Assembly: GCA_903889655.1 (NCBI GenBank)
Contig: CAISYL010000194.1
Span: 1 to 39,110, forward strand
Source of the DNA: an uncultured Alphaproteobacteria bacterium
Lineage (GTDB): Bacteria; Pseudomonadota; Alphaproteobacteria; Parvibaculales; Parvibaculaceae
Length of the DNA stretch: 39,110 nt
Reading direction: 5' to 3'
The position numbers and the translations under genes were made by a program. Positions 10,012 through 15,060 of this stretch are shown here, one piece after another. Under the pieces are notes generated by a model. The model was not told where the DNA came from and did not search any database. It saw only the letters and a list, made by a program, of their open reading frames with translations. Each line of letters opens with the position of its first letter. Positions within the stretch are counted from its first letter, which is position 1.

Positions 10012-12201
10012 GTGAGCACCGCGGCGGACACGGAAACGGCTGAACCCGGCAATGGCCCCTTGCAGGAGGTGGTTGTGCCGCGTCTTCGCGCGGGCGTCGG
10101 TTACGTGACTTCGTCCTTCTTCGGGGAGAGCGACCGCTGGTTTCTCTGGTCGCCGGTCCTGCTCGGCCTCGGCATCGCGCTCTATTTCGGCCTCCCGTTC
10201 GAACCGCCGTTCTGGTCCGCGATCGCGGTGCTGGCGATTACCGGGATCTGGCTTGCCGTGGCTCTGCGGCGAGGAACGACAGGCGTTTTTGCCGCAGCTT
10301 TTTTCTGTGTCGCTCTCGGTTTCGGGCTCGCCTGTATACGCACCGCCGCCGTCTGGGCGCCGGTGTTGCAAAAGCCCTGGGCCGGAACCGTCGAAGGGAG
10401 AGTTGTCGAAGTCGAGCGCACAGAAAAAGGGGCGCTGTCGGTCACCTTGCAACCGCTATCGATGGAACGGGTCGCCGCCGAAGCGCTTCCGGCGCGGGTT
10501 CGTCTGCAGGTTCGCTTTCCGGACAGCGTCATCGAGCCCGGCCAGAGGATCAGGCTGCGCGGGCGATTGATGCCGCCGCCGGAGCCTGTCGAGCCGAGTG
10601 GCTTCGACTATGCGCGTCAGGTCTGGTTCGAAAGTCTCGGCGGTGTGGGCTTTGCCTTCGCGGCGCCAGAGATCGTCGCACCGCCGCCGGAGGACTGGAC
10701 GACCGGGCTCGCCACCCTCCGGCACGGCATCACGGCGCGGGTGCAGAACGGCATTGGCGGCGCTTCGGGAGCCATCGCGGCTGCCCTCATCACCGGCGAG
10801 CAGCGGGCCATTCCCGAGTGGGCGGCGGACGATCTGCGGAATGCCGGCCTCTCCCACGTGCTGTCGATTTCCGGCCTTCACATGGTGCTCTTCGGCGGAT
10901 CGCTCTTCTGGCTGGTGCGCGCGGTCTTCGCGCTGGTGCCGGCTATTGCGTTGCGCTATCCGATCAAGAAATGGGGCGCGGCGGCGGCGCTTCTCGGGTC
11001 GACGGGCTATCTGCTTATTTCGGGTGCGGAAGTTGCGACGCAGCGCTCGTGGATCATGATCGCGCTGATGTTCGTCGCAATCCTGTTCGACCGGCCGGCG
11101 CTCAGCATGCGGAACGTCGCGCTGGCTGCGCTGATCGTTCTCGCCTGGCAACCAGAAAGTCTGCTCGGCGCGAGTTTCCAGATGTCCTTTGCCGCCGTGG
11201 TGGCGCTGATTGCCTTTTACGAAAGCCCGCTCGCACAACGCTTCACCTCGGCGATGAGCGAGCGCGGCGATGGGCCGGTGGTGGCCGCCCTGCGCTTCGG
11301 CTTCAACCATCTGACCGGCATCATGCTGACGACGACGGTCGCCGGTTTTGCGACCGGCGCTTATGCCGCCTATCACTTCGGACGGGTGGCTCTTTACGGC
11401 ATGGCGGGCAATCTTGGCGCGTTGCCCATCGTCAGCGCCTTCGTCATGCCGGCGGCGCTCGCCGCCTTGATCCTGATGCCGTTCGGGCTCGAAAAACCCG
11501 CGCTCTGGGTCATGGGCAAGGGGGTCGACGGCATGCTCTGGGTGGCGCATGCGGTGTCGAGCTGGGAAGGCGCCGACCGGGTCGTGGCTTCGGCGCCCAT
11601 GGCGTCGCTGGCATTGCTGACGCTGGGCGGATTGTGGCTCGCCCTCTGGCGCGGGAGCTGGCGTCTCGTCGGCATCGCTCCGATGGCGCTCAGCATTGCG
11701 CTCTGGGGCTCGGGCGCGCGGCCGGATGTCCTCATCGACCGCGACGGCGCGCTTGCCGCCGTGCGTGGAAACAACGGATTGCTCGGTCTCACCTCGGCGC
11801 GATCGTCCTATGCGGCGGAGCAATGGCTGCGGCATGACGGCGACCGGCGAGAGCCGAAGCTTGCCGCACAGCCGTCATCCCTGCATTGCGACGCGGAAGG
11901 ATGCGTCTGGCGGGAGGAGGGAAGGCCGCTCGTCGCCTTTCCCGAAGGGATCGATGCATTGACCGACGATTGCGCGAAAGCGGATGTCATCATCGCGACC
12001 GTTCCCGTGCCGCGACGGTTGCGGGCGCATTGCCGGGCACAGCTCGTCATCGATCGTTTCGATCTCTGGCGAAATGGCGCGGTGGCTCTCTATTACGAAG
12101 AGGATGGTGGGATCAGAATGGAAACGTCGCGCGACGAGCGCGGCCGACGTCCCTGGGTGCAGCGGCAGCCTGTCGTGAAGACCGCTGCGGAAGATCAATA
12201 G
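10012..12201 (+). CDS. comEC: ComEC/Rec2 family DNA-uptake channel protein
   Basis: Inner-membrane protein of 729 residues, related to the channel that passes single-stranded DNA into the cytoplasm during natural transformation. An N-terminal DUF4131-like part with two or three membrane spans and an OB-like region is followed by the Competence domain, with the family motif [16 protein letters not shown] and several later hydrophobic spans. The C-terminal region (about 560-729) is where many ComEC proteins have a metallo-beta-lactamase domain, but I see no HxHxDH metal motif. The start is GTG 10012 after GAGGGGG; the longer open frame upstream overlaps gltX and has no family resemblance. Its stop overlaps that of lexA. 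Confidence 0.88.
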
Positions 12202-12905
12202 CGGCGCAGGAGACCGACCAGCTTGCCCTGCACCTTGACGCGGTCCGGCCCGAAGATGCGCGTCTCGTAAGCCGGGTTTGCCGCTTCAAGCGCGATCGAG
12301 TCGCCCTTGCGGCGCAAGCGCTTCAGCGTCGCCTCCATGCCGTCGACAAGCGCGACGACGATCTCGCCGCTGTTCGCGGTATCGCAGCGCTGGATAAGCA
12401 CCGTGTCGCCGTCGAGGATGCCGGCGTCGATCATCGAGTCGCCCTTGACCTCGAGCGCGTAATGTTCGCCGGAGCCGAGCAGGGTCAGAGGCACCGCGAC
12501 CTGATGGCTTTCCTCCTGCAACGCCTCGATCGGCGTACCGGCGGCGATGCGGCCCATGACCGAAAGAGTGACCGTGTTTTCGGATTGATGCGCGGGCTGC
12601 AGATCGCGACTCAGCGGCTTACCGCGGCTGCCTTCGATGACGCTCGGCGAGAAGCCCTTGTTGCGCGAGATGGCGAGGCTCGGCGACGCGGATTCGGGCA
12701 GCTTCACGATCTCCAGCGCGCGGGCGCGATGCGCGAGGCGGCGGATGAAACCGCGCTCCTCCAGCGCTGTGATGAGGCGGTGGATGCCGGATTTGGAGCG
12801 CAGATCCAGCGCTTCCTTCATCTCGTCGAAGCTCGGGGACACGCCACCCTCCTTGATGCGCTCATGAATGAACATCAGGAGTTCGTGCTGTTTGCGTGTG
12901 AGCAT
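12195..12905 (-). CDS. lexA: LexA SOS repressor
   Basis: Represses DNA-damage genes and cuts itself when RecA is activated. The N-terminal winged helix (1-70, starting [17 protein letters not shown]) is joined to an S24 peptidase domain. The cleavage site is Ala122-Gly123 in GRIAAGTP, the nucleophile Ser157 in VKGDSMID, and the general base Lys195 in EATLKRL. It has 236 residues; ATG 12905 is the conserved start, although the frame is open further upstream. The promoter carries a LexA box over its -10, so it is self-repressed. The 3' end overlaps the comEC 3' end by 7 bp. Confidence 0.97.
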
Positions 12906-12950: not shown

Positions 12951-12979
12951 GTTCTAGTTTGGTTCTTTTATGGCGTCAA
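12951..12979 (-). promoter_or_regulatory. lexA promoter with LexA box
   Basis: On the minus strand TTGACG (12974-12979), a 17-bp spacer and TAGAAC (12951-12956) form a sigma-70-like promoter. GTTC at 12951-12954 and GTTC at 12962-12965, seven bases apart, match the alphaproteobacterial LexA box GTTC-N7-GTTC; the box covers the -10. This is a classical autorepression layout. Confidence 0.88.
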
Positions 12980-13118
12980 GCATTTCTGTGGATAAAATTC
13001 ACCGGAATTCCCCGCAATAGCAGCACAGCGTCGTAAGCCCGCCCGCGACATGGTGCGAGCGCGGAGGAAAGGTTTTCAAGGATTTTGCCTGACGTGGTTA
13101 TGCTTCCTTACAAGTAGA

Positions 13119-13147
13119 TTGCTTCCTTATAAGGAAGCTGCTATAAG
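13119..13147 (+). promoter_or_regulatory. Promoter of the accessory gene at 13175
   Basis: TTGCTT (13119-13124), a 17-bp spacer and TATAAG (13142-13147) make a good sigma-70-type promoter. A start near 13154 would leave a leader of about 20 bases containing AGAGGAG (13161-13167). The spacer is almost filled by a perfect palindrome. Confidence 0.7.
13121..13138. promoter_or_regulatory. 18-bp perfect palindrome, probable operator
   Basis: GCTTCCTTATAAGGAAGC is self-complementary over all 18 bases and lies between the -35 and -10 of the accessory gene. A second copy of its left arm, GCTTCCTTACAAG, stands 19 bp upstream (13102-13114), and a degenerate copy (TATAAGAAGGAA) follows from 13142. This arrangement is typical of repressor binding sites in tandem. 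The repressor is not identified. Confidence 0.65.
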
Positions 13148-13174
13148 AAGGAATGATTTTAGAGGAGTGCCCAC

Positions 13175-13729
13175 ATGGCCAGTGTTTCGTTCATCCCGAC
13201 GTCAAAACTAACTTCTCTGCTCGCCGCCGCTGACCCTCAGAAGGCGCTGCTAGTGCGTGTACTGAACACAACGCGTCTGTCGCTCGAAACGGACTCATTT
13301 CAGCAGGTCTCGATCATCGATCTTGCCGAAGAAAAGATCATTCCAGGGAATAGTCCGGTGGAAAACCCTGTCACCGCTCCCAAGGCTTCGCGGAAGAGCG
13401 GGAAGTATCAGTTGATTTGGTTTGGCGAGACCGTAGACACTTATTCGCTCAAAGACCTGCTGAGTGCGGGGCTTCAAGCGCTTGAAAAAGCCAAGCCCGG
13501 CACCCTTGAAAAACTGTCTAAGGTGAAAAAAAGCACCAAACGCATTGTTGCTCAGAACCCTTCGGATTTGTTTGACACCCCTGGCTTGTCGGAAACCTAC
13601 AGCCAGAAGCTCATGGAAGGCTGGTGGTATGGAACCAACAATTCGGCGCAAGAGACCAACGCTTGGCTTGAGCGTGCTTGCGAGTGTGCGGGCGTAAAAT
13701 GGGGAAAGGACTTCTCCACCAGCCTTTGA
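13175..13729 (+). CDS. Unrecognised 184-residue protein, accessory
   Basis: I do not recognise the family. The protein is soluble, without signal peptide or membrane span. An N-terminal part (about 1-65) is followed by a Pro/Ala/Ser/Lys linker (about 62-75). A second domain runs from KYQLIWFGETVDTYSLKDLL through a Lys-rich helix (LEKLSKVKKSTKRIVAQ) to GWWYGTNNSAQETNAWLERA and KWGKDFSTSL. The basic helix and the Trp-rich segment suggest a nucleic-acid or protein contact, but that is a guess. It has its own promoter with an operator-like palindrome and a strong ribosome binding site. Base composition looks lower in G+C than the neighbours. It separates moeA from lexA, which often adjoin in relatives, so a late insertion is likely. 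Confidence 0.75.
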   Translation: MASVSFIPTSKLTSLLAAADPQKALLVRVLNTTRLSLETDSFQQVSIIDLAEEKIIPGNSPVENPVTAPKASRKSGKYQLIWFGETVDTYSLKDLLSAGLQALEKAKPGTLEKLSKVKKSTKRIVAQNPSDLFDTPGLSETYSQKLMEGWWYGTNNSAQETNAWLERACECAGVKWGKDFSTSL

Positions 13730-13784
13730 GACGTTTCATTCCAGCGCCTCTACGAGATCGATGTTGTTGATACGATTCCGGGAA

Positions 13785-13818
13785 CACAACACCTGCTTTG
13801 TAACACAAGCGGGTTGTG
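13785..13818. terminator. Imperfect hairpin between the accessory gene and moeA
   Basis: CACAAC, CC and GCTT pair with AAGC, GG and GTTGTG (12 pairs, two single-base bulges, 8-base loop). It lies in the gap between two converging genes. A plus-strand T-run (ATTTTT, 13838-13843) follows some 20 bases later after a 4-bp mini-stem. It may end either transcript, or mark the edge of the inserted segment. Confidence 0.4.
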
Positions 13819-13848
13819 GATATGCTCCGTCAGCGGAATTTTTCTAAA

Positions 13849-15060
13849 TCACTCCCGCAACGGCATGATCGTCACCACATCGCCCGCCTTAGCGGGCGGG
13901 GCTTCCTGCGCGCGGATGAGGAGGCAATCCGCTGCCGACAGGGCCGACAGCATGGAGCTGTCCTGCGTTTCGAAGGGCGTCGCCACCGGAAGTTCGCCCG
14001 GCACATGGTCGAGCCGGGCGCGGAGATAGTCCTCGCGGCGATCATTCTCGGGGAGGCTCCGGCCGAGCCGGGCGAGCGTCGTCCGGGGCGTTGTCGCGTC
14101 CGAGCCCTGAAGCTTCGAAATCGCGGGCATAAGGAAGAGAAGCGCGCAGACGAGTGCGGAGACGGGATTGCCCGGCAGGCCGAGCATCGGCACCCTGCCA
14201 TAGCGGCCGAACATCAGCGGCTTTCCCGGACGCATGGCGATGCGCCAGAAATCGATGTCGAGCCCGTCTTCGACCAGCGCCGACTGGACGAGATCGTGGT
14301 CGCCGACCGAGGCGCCGCCCAGCGTAACGAGCATGTCGGCCCCTGCAGCCTTGCGCGCCGTCGCGCGGATCGCCTCGCTGCTGTCGGGCGCGATGCCCAG
14401 GTCGATCGGGATGCCTCCCGCCGCCGCAATCAGTGCGGCGAGGCCGTCATTGTTGGCGGAGACGATCTGGTTCGGACCGATCGCCGCGCCAGGGCGCACG
14501 AGTTCGTCGCCGGTCGAGAAGAAGGCGATCCGCGGGCGCTTGCGGACTGAGAGCGTCGGCACGTTCATCGCCGCCGCCAGCGCGATATCGGCGGGTGAAA
14601 GCAGGCGCCCCGCGAGAAGGCCCGTCGCGCCTTCGGTGAAATCGAGACCGGCGCGGCGGATGTGCCGTCCGGGAACGGAGCTTTCCCGCGCGATGACGAT
14701 GTCGTCGTAGCGCTCCATATCTTCCTGAATGACGATGGTATCGGCGCCTTGCGGCACCGCCGCGCCGGTGAAGATGCGGACGGCTTCGCCTTCTCCAACG
14801 ACGCCTTCATAGGCGCCGCCCGCCGGTGCTTCGCCGACGACGCGCAGACGCGCCGGCACGCTTTCCACATCGACGGCGCGGACCGCATAGCCATCCATGG
14901 CCGAAAGATCGGCGGGCGGTTGCGTCCGTCGCGCCACGACATTCTCGGCGAGCACGCGCCCTGCGGCCTGCGCAAGCGGCACGGGCTCGGTCGCGGTCGG
15001 CACCAGCGTCGCCAGAATACGGGCGCGGGCTTCCGTGACGGGGATCAGGGCTTGCGCCAT
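13849..15060 (-). CDS. moeA: Molybdopterin molybdenumtransferase MoeA
   Basis: Inserts molybdate into adenylated molybdopterin in the last step of molybdenum cofactor synthesis. The 403 residues are the usual length. Landmarks are LSAMDGYAVR in domain I, FFSTGDELVRPG and DMLVTLGGASVGDHDL in the MPT-binding domain, and LGLPGNPVSALV near the C-terminus. The start codon directly abuts the moaC stop, so the two are coupled. It is the last gene of the trpG-D-C-GNAT-moaC-moeA run; lexA, the expected next gene, is displaced by the accessory gene. Confidence 0.97.
   Translation of the reverse strand: MAQALIPVTEARARILATLVPTATEPVPLAQAAGRVLAENVVARRTQPPADLSAMDGYAVRAVDVESVPARLRVVGEAPAGGAYEGVVGEGEAVRIFTGAAVPQGADTIVIQEDMERYDDIVIARESSVPGRHIRRAGLDFTEGATGLLAGRLLSPADIALAAAMNVPTLSVRKRPRIAFFSTGDELVRPGAAIGPNQIVSANNDGLAALIAAAGGIPIDLGIAPDSSEAIRATARKAAGADMLVTLGGASVGDHDLVQSALVEDGLDIDFWRIAMRPGKPLMFGRYGRVPMLGLPGNPVSALVCALLFLMPAISKLQGSDATTPRTTLARLGRSLPENDRREDYLRARLDHVPGELPVATPFETQDSSMLSALSAADCLLIRAQEAPPAKAGDVVTIMPLRE

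Follow-up and report, generated by a model that had tools for sequence, protein, structure and literature searches.

A phage-associated SeqA-fold protein of Alphaproteobacteria that probably reads a palindromic operator in its own promoter

The gene that separates lexA from moeA in the DNA analysed here encodes a stand-alone protein of 184 amino acids (aa) whose C-terminal domain is predicted to adopt the fold of SeqA, the Escherichia coli protein that holds on to newly replicated DNA. We consider it likely that this is a phage-spread protein that represses its own gene and reads the palindromic core CCTTATAAGG, not hemimethylated GATC; both the binding and the repression are steps that we infer. 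The window, that is, the whole stretch of 39,110 nucleotides, is the entire contig C194 of a 4.36-Mb genome, and the locus comprises the following features:

12198-12905, minus strand: lexA coding sequence, a neighbour, with the stop codon extending to 12195 (open reading frame list)
12997-13844: segment of 848 bp with a G+C content of 0.52, missing from relatives at the lexA-moeA junction (blastn against 11 relatives)
13106-13115: second operator box, CCTTACAAGT, matching at 8/10, 19 bp upstream of the main box (box scan)
13119-13124, plus strand: weak -35-like hexamer TTGCTT (read from the sequence)
13121-13138: main operator box, the 18-bp perfect palindrome GCTTCCTTATAAGGAAGC, with the core CCTTATAAGG at 13125-13134 (core conserved upstream of homologues)
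13142-13147, plus strand: -10-like hexamer TATAAG, separated from the -35-like hexamer by a 17-bp spacer (identical layout in the Mesorhizobium locus L012)
13161-13167, plus strand: ribosome-binding site AGAGGAG (read from the sequence)
13175-13729, plus strand: coding sequence of the SeqA-fold stand-alone protein, 184 aa (open reading frame; homologues 73/64/64/47/41% identical; purifying selection)
13175-13345, plus strand: alpha+beta domain at the N-terminus (aa 1-57), distinct from SeqA_N and presumed to serve oligomerisation (AlphaFold2 secondary structure; no Pfam match)
13415-13726, plus strand: C-terminal domain, aa 81-184, with the predicted SeqA C-terminal DNA-binding fold (AlphaFold2, Foldseek, VIA-align)
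13849-15060, minus strand: moeA, a neighbour (open reading frame list)

The initial annotation had described a gene of unrecognised family and lower G+C lying between lexA and moeA, and all three points were borne out. Searches of Pfam, NCBIfam, PHROGs and PADLOC with the 184-aa protein alone returned no family match, and the G+C content of the gene is 0.528 compared to a window mean of 0.625, with 1.6% of 555-bp tiles being equally low. Differences between the gene and its Mesorhizobium copy are distributed as 35/23/104 over the three codon positions, which indicates purifying selection and thus a maintained protein. Beside lexA, at 12951-12965, lies a GTTC-N7-GTTC box.

Structure prediction assigned the C-terminal half of this unrecognised protein to the SeqA fold. 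With the AlphaFold2 model (pLDDT 87) as query against the PDB, ranks 1-5 of the Foldseek results were all SeqA, with probabilities of 0.98-1.00, although the E-values were no better than 0.019-0.11. VIA-align to SeqA chains gave Z 9.5-10.2 over 96-101 residues, the best being 1lrr_A (Z 10.2 over 101 residues), while the next non-SeqA chain reached Z 4.5, on the other domain. Compared directly by sequence, the protein resembles SeqA weakly (hhalign probability 23%; hmmsearch E 0.055 against 3sk7), so that the assignment rests on the fold and on intermediates; the 184-aa protein itself gave no match at the curated cut-offs of Pfam SeqA and Pfam SeqA_N. Two sphingomonad relatives (L023 and L025) passed the Pfam SeqA_N cut-off, and a nuclease-fused relative (L006), linked to the 184-aa protein by tblastn (E 2e-12), matched Pfam SeqA at exactly its 25.5-bit cut-off. 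The model of a sphingomonad homologue matched full-length SeqA (3fmt_B; E 3.9e-4, Z 11.4), and its N-terminus matched SeqA-N (1xrx) with 37% identity over 35 residues. Annexin and phycocyanin entries in a PDB profile search had E-values like those of SeqA, but were rejected as covering one helix stretch only. A BFVD search gave no meaningful match, and a PF03925 search for the SeqA family in the source genome retrieved nothing. Together, the computations show a SeqA fold for the modelled C-terminal domain.

The N-terminal domain of the model consists of one helix and four strands. A SeqA_N oligomerisation domain, present in the sphingomonad relatives, was not found in the 184-aa protein, and a MapZ-like identity for this region was discarded, as the best PDB match (Z 4.5) was not meaningful. 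We presume it to be an oligomerisation domain.

Overall, the protein resembles SeqA of E. coli and Vibrio (PF17206 SeqA_N plus PF03925 SeqA; PDB 3fmt, 1lrr, 1iu3, 3sk7) in its C-terminal DNA-binding fold (Z about 10), in its two-domain layout, in retaining Asn150 and in having a basic residue at the position of Arg118. Its putative sites likewise come in pairs separated by some tens of bp, and SeqA itself works with pairs of GATC at distances of up to 31 bp (PMC6225831). In contrast to SeqA, the 184-aa protein (~10% identity) has a different N-terminal domain and Ser in place of Asn152, its sites lack GATC and are sparse whereas those of SeqA are genome-wide, and its gene is patchy and phage-linked (1/40 family genomes), while SeqA is a conserved chromosomal core gene that acts at oriC.

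Upstream of the gene, the initial annotation had recognised a clear -35/-10 pair, with an 18-bp perfect palindrome filling the spacer and two further partial copies. The palindrome was confirmed and the -10 hexamer TATAAG is good; however, the -35 hexamer TTGCTT is weak, and a consensus promoter scan at the 184-aa gene reported no site and did not find it. Rather than filling the spacer, the main palindrome occupies most of its 17 bp and also overlaps the -35-like hexamer. One of the further copies was upheld, spanning 13102-13119, 19 bp upstream of the first, but the third, over the -10, is a half-match that does not exceed chance. A genome search, as had been proposed, allowed up to three mismatches and found no further GCTTCCTTATAAGGAAGC in the 4.36-Mb genome, save one site with three mismatches.

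The site is convincing as an operator because it is conserved across relatives, and not from this single locus. Within 150 bp upstream of the gene, CCTTATAAGG is found at 8/10 or better in 13 of the 14 stand-alone members, being exact in 10, whereas none of 13 control genes has it at 8/10; the controls were of two kinds, fusions to a nuclease or another domain that have the C-domain in common, and SeqA_N-like proteins that lack it. A conserved operator in the gene's own promoter, one of the features expected of a self-repressing regulator, is present in this family, and the palindrome is conserved upstream of homologues, a point on which the initial annotation had staked its proposal. Among 1008 background tiles, 18 reached at least 8/10 and one 10/10. 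The operator usually consists of two boxes with a spacing of 14-38 bp, some of them far from the ATG (up to -148), and the members preceded by CCTTATAAGG boxes include the sphingomonad proteins of about 20-25% identity. The sole exception among the stand-alone relatives, L034:1492-2007, adjoins a gene for an XRE-type regulator.

Alternatively, a host regulator that alphaproteobacteria share, distinct from the SeqA-fold protein, could bind the boxes, with the SeqA-fold gene as a mere target. Such a regulator would fit ordinary-looking palindromes that are only putative sites of the SeqA-fold protein, and the lack of boxes at L034. However, seven genomes contain between 0 and 2 exact sites each, and in five of the seven the exact site lies ahead of the family gene, which leaves a host regulator almost no other targets. 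Moreover, the boxes accompany the gene in phages, Rhizobiales, sphingomonads and the family of the window, with no other shared neighbour. We regard this explanation as improbable. The other exact CCTTATAAGG in the source genome (L077:1501-1510, on contig C265) consists of one box, some 8 bases ahead of the start codon of what is presumably a HigA-like antitoxin gene; this second exact operator is at the count expected from the control.

The initial annotation had left it between the gene product and a protein elsewhere to act as the repressor. Repression by the protein itself is the best-supported reading, given its SeqA-type DNA-binding fold and an operator that travels with the gene; a suggested role as a stress gene found no support. 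The C-domain is the only part common to all operator-bearing members, and is thus the likely part to recognise CCTTATAAGG. The N-terminal domain would join subunits, so that one complex could grip two neighbouring boxes. Since the main box covers part of the -35-like element and the greater part of the spacer, protein bound between -35 and -10 should block RNA polymerase, and the protein would thereby repress its own gene. As the exact site is found no more than twice in a genome, this promoter is probably the protein's strongest target, and exact sites are too few for it to organise the whole genome in the way SeqA does. Its spread by phages and its SeqA fold suggest that it acts on DNA that is replicating or entering the cell; a wider, SeqA-like job of binding such DNA for the mobile element is most likely, but a guess.

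Does the protein read DNA modification, as SeqA does? The SeqA residues that touch GATC are Arg116, Thr117, Arg118, Asn150 and Asn152 (PMC6225831), and the 184-aa protein has Ser, Thr, Lys, Asn and Ser at these positions, so that only Thr117 and Asn150 are identical; the counterpart of Asn150 is Asn155. Across 18 aligned proteins, the Asn150 position is Asn and the Arg118 position basic (Lys/Arg) in all 18, while every aligned stand-alone member has Ser at the Asn152 position and Arg116 is not retained in the stand-alone group. GATC is not enriched in the operators (8 found versus 7.1 expected) and GANTC is depleted (2 found versus 7.2 expected), which looks like recognition of sequence and not of hemimethylation. 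As Asn152 is replaced by Ser and GATC is not in excess, hemimethylation reading of the SeqA type is unsupported. These residue and operator data also count against a role in defence or counter-defence in which modified DNA (hemimethylated or m6A) is what the protein recognises and the boxes are secondary control, as does the empty PADLOC search. Nevertheless, a homologous domain is fused to HSDR_N-type nucleases, two of these fusions (L006 and L007) retain the SeqA-like Gly-Arg-x-Arg contact motif exactly, and an AbiJ-type abortive-infection gene neighbours the Mesorhizobium copy. We therefore hold this role to be doubtful, while granting it some weight.

Regarding the origin of the gene, blastn against 11 relatives showed that homology on the lexA side stops at ~12996 and restarts on the moeA side at ~13845. 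lexA and moeA adjoin in most relatives, and the gene was found in 1 of 40 family genomes, namely the source genome, and was absent from the 39 others; it is thus not general at this place, which agrees with the initial proposal of a small, horizontally acquired cargo, as do the closest copies in Mesorhizobium and Sphingomonas. One genome of the same genus encodes a 21%-identical domain within a nuclease-fused protein of 370 aa at another genomic place. The junction is a variable spot, as it holds a TetR gene and a desaturase gene in the nearest relatives, a different TetR gene in another relative, or nothing. This variability within the genus would also suit a resident chromosomal gene that most relatives have lost, with no recent arrival. 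Yet the gene is missing from nearly the whole family, its nearest copies are in other groups, its G+C is low and prophages carry copies, which makes long residence very improbable. No tRNA or Rfam element was found at the junction, and no phage genes were seen beside the 184-aa gene in the window. By eye, a short TGTGGATA repeat can be made out at either side of the insert, but it was absent from the output of the repeat search, and we make no claim of a target-site duplication.

Single-sequence scans of genome and viral contigs detected nothing, while an alignment of two sequences as query reached relatives. The copy of Mesorhizobium ventifaucium (L012) is 73% identical to the 184-aa protein, and those of Sphingomonas parapaucimobilis and Sphingomonas sp. 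are about 65% identical; the two-sequence search added one alphaproteobacterial metagenome-assembled genome and three viral contigs, whereas tblastn of the 184-aa protein against plasmids and annotated phages gave no match. The block common to the window and L012 comprises window positions 13107-13725, from operator to stop codon, and nothing else. In an S. parapaucimobilis prophage with an integrase, the gene has the terminase large subunit gene on one side and a head protease/capsid gene on the other, two viral contigs carry it in the same terminase-to-capsid position, and in L018 it adjoins phage tail and lysis genes, in line with the phage link suspected initially. In L013 and L018, the gene has its own promoter, stands among phage structural genes and is variably present, as is expected of a phage moron or cargo gene. 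The gene is best explained as a cargo of one gene that spreads horizontally in association with phages. Around the Mesorhizobium copy, an AbiJ/Abi_C abortive-infection gene lies upstream (L012:3162-4349) and a weak MTES_1575 nuclease match downstream (L012 7380-7832).

Profile searches revealed more distant relatives in sphingomonads and the Mesorhizobium family. The stand-alone sphingomonad proteins L023-L028 (about 20-25% identity) share the C-domain and the CCTTATAAGG boxes with the 184-aa protein, but differ in having a true SeqA_N oligomerisation domain and in often lying beside a moeB/thiF-like gene, as is the case in four genomes (L024, L025, L026, L027). Viral contigs and plasmids yielded no protein of this type, whose prevalence in sphingomonads may be underestimated because no more than eight candidates were scored per genome. 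The HSDR_N nuclease fusions (L004, L006, L007, L086, L087 and L092; about 370 aa) have a homologous C-domain, but differ in carrying a type I restriction-type nuclease domain and in lacking CCTTATAAGG boxes. Several of them keep a Gly-Arg/Lys-x-Arg motif together with Asn150, and we consider the fusions candidate modification-dependent restriction enzymes. Three sphingomonad mini-proteins (L088, L089 and L090, near 1490-1950) have weak SeqA_N and weak RAMA matches, both below the Pfam cut-offs, and no CCTTATAAGG boxes. The small proteins L091, L093 and L094 combine a SeqA_N-like start (22.8 bits in L094, against a cut-off of 23 bits) with an unrelated C-terminus.

According to a 2018 review, homologues of SeqA are lacking in alphaproteobacteria, and some other protein might play the role of SeqA (PMC6090056). 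Within the open-access literature, to which our search was confined, we found no account of a SeqA or a SeqA-nuclease fusion from alphaproteobacteria. Yet alphaproteobacteria do have proteins of the SeqA fold, in some cases with the complete SeqA layout; what sets the present one apart is a SeqA fold with different sites and a different N-terminus that is mobile, in a family that comes with an obvious candidate DNA target. The nuclease fusions suggest that the fold is also used in restriction. We tentatively propose, as a possibility that falls a little short of probable, that alphaproteobacteria and their phages carry an overlooked, self-controlling branch of SeqA that switched from hemimethylated GATC to CCTTATAAGG. 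The full-architecture sphingomonad members could then be the missing sequestration factor that has been proposed for the class, and the phage-borne members could tamper with sequestration.
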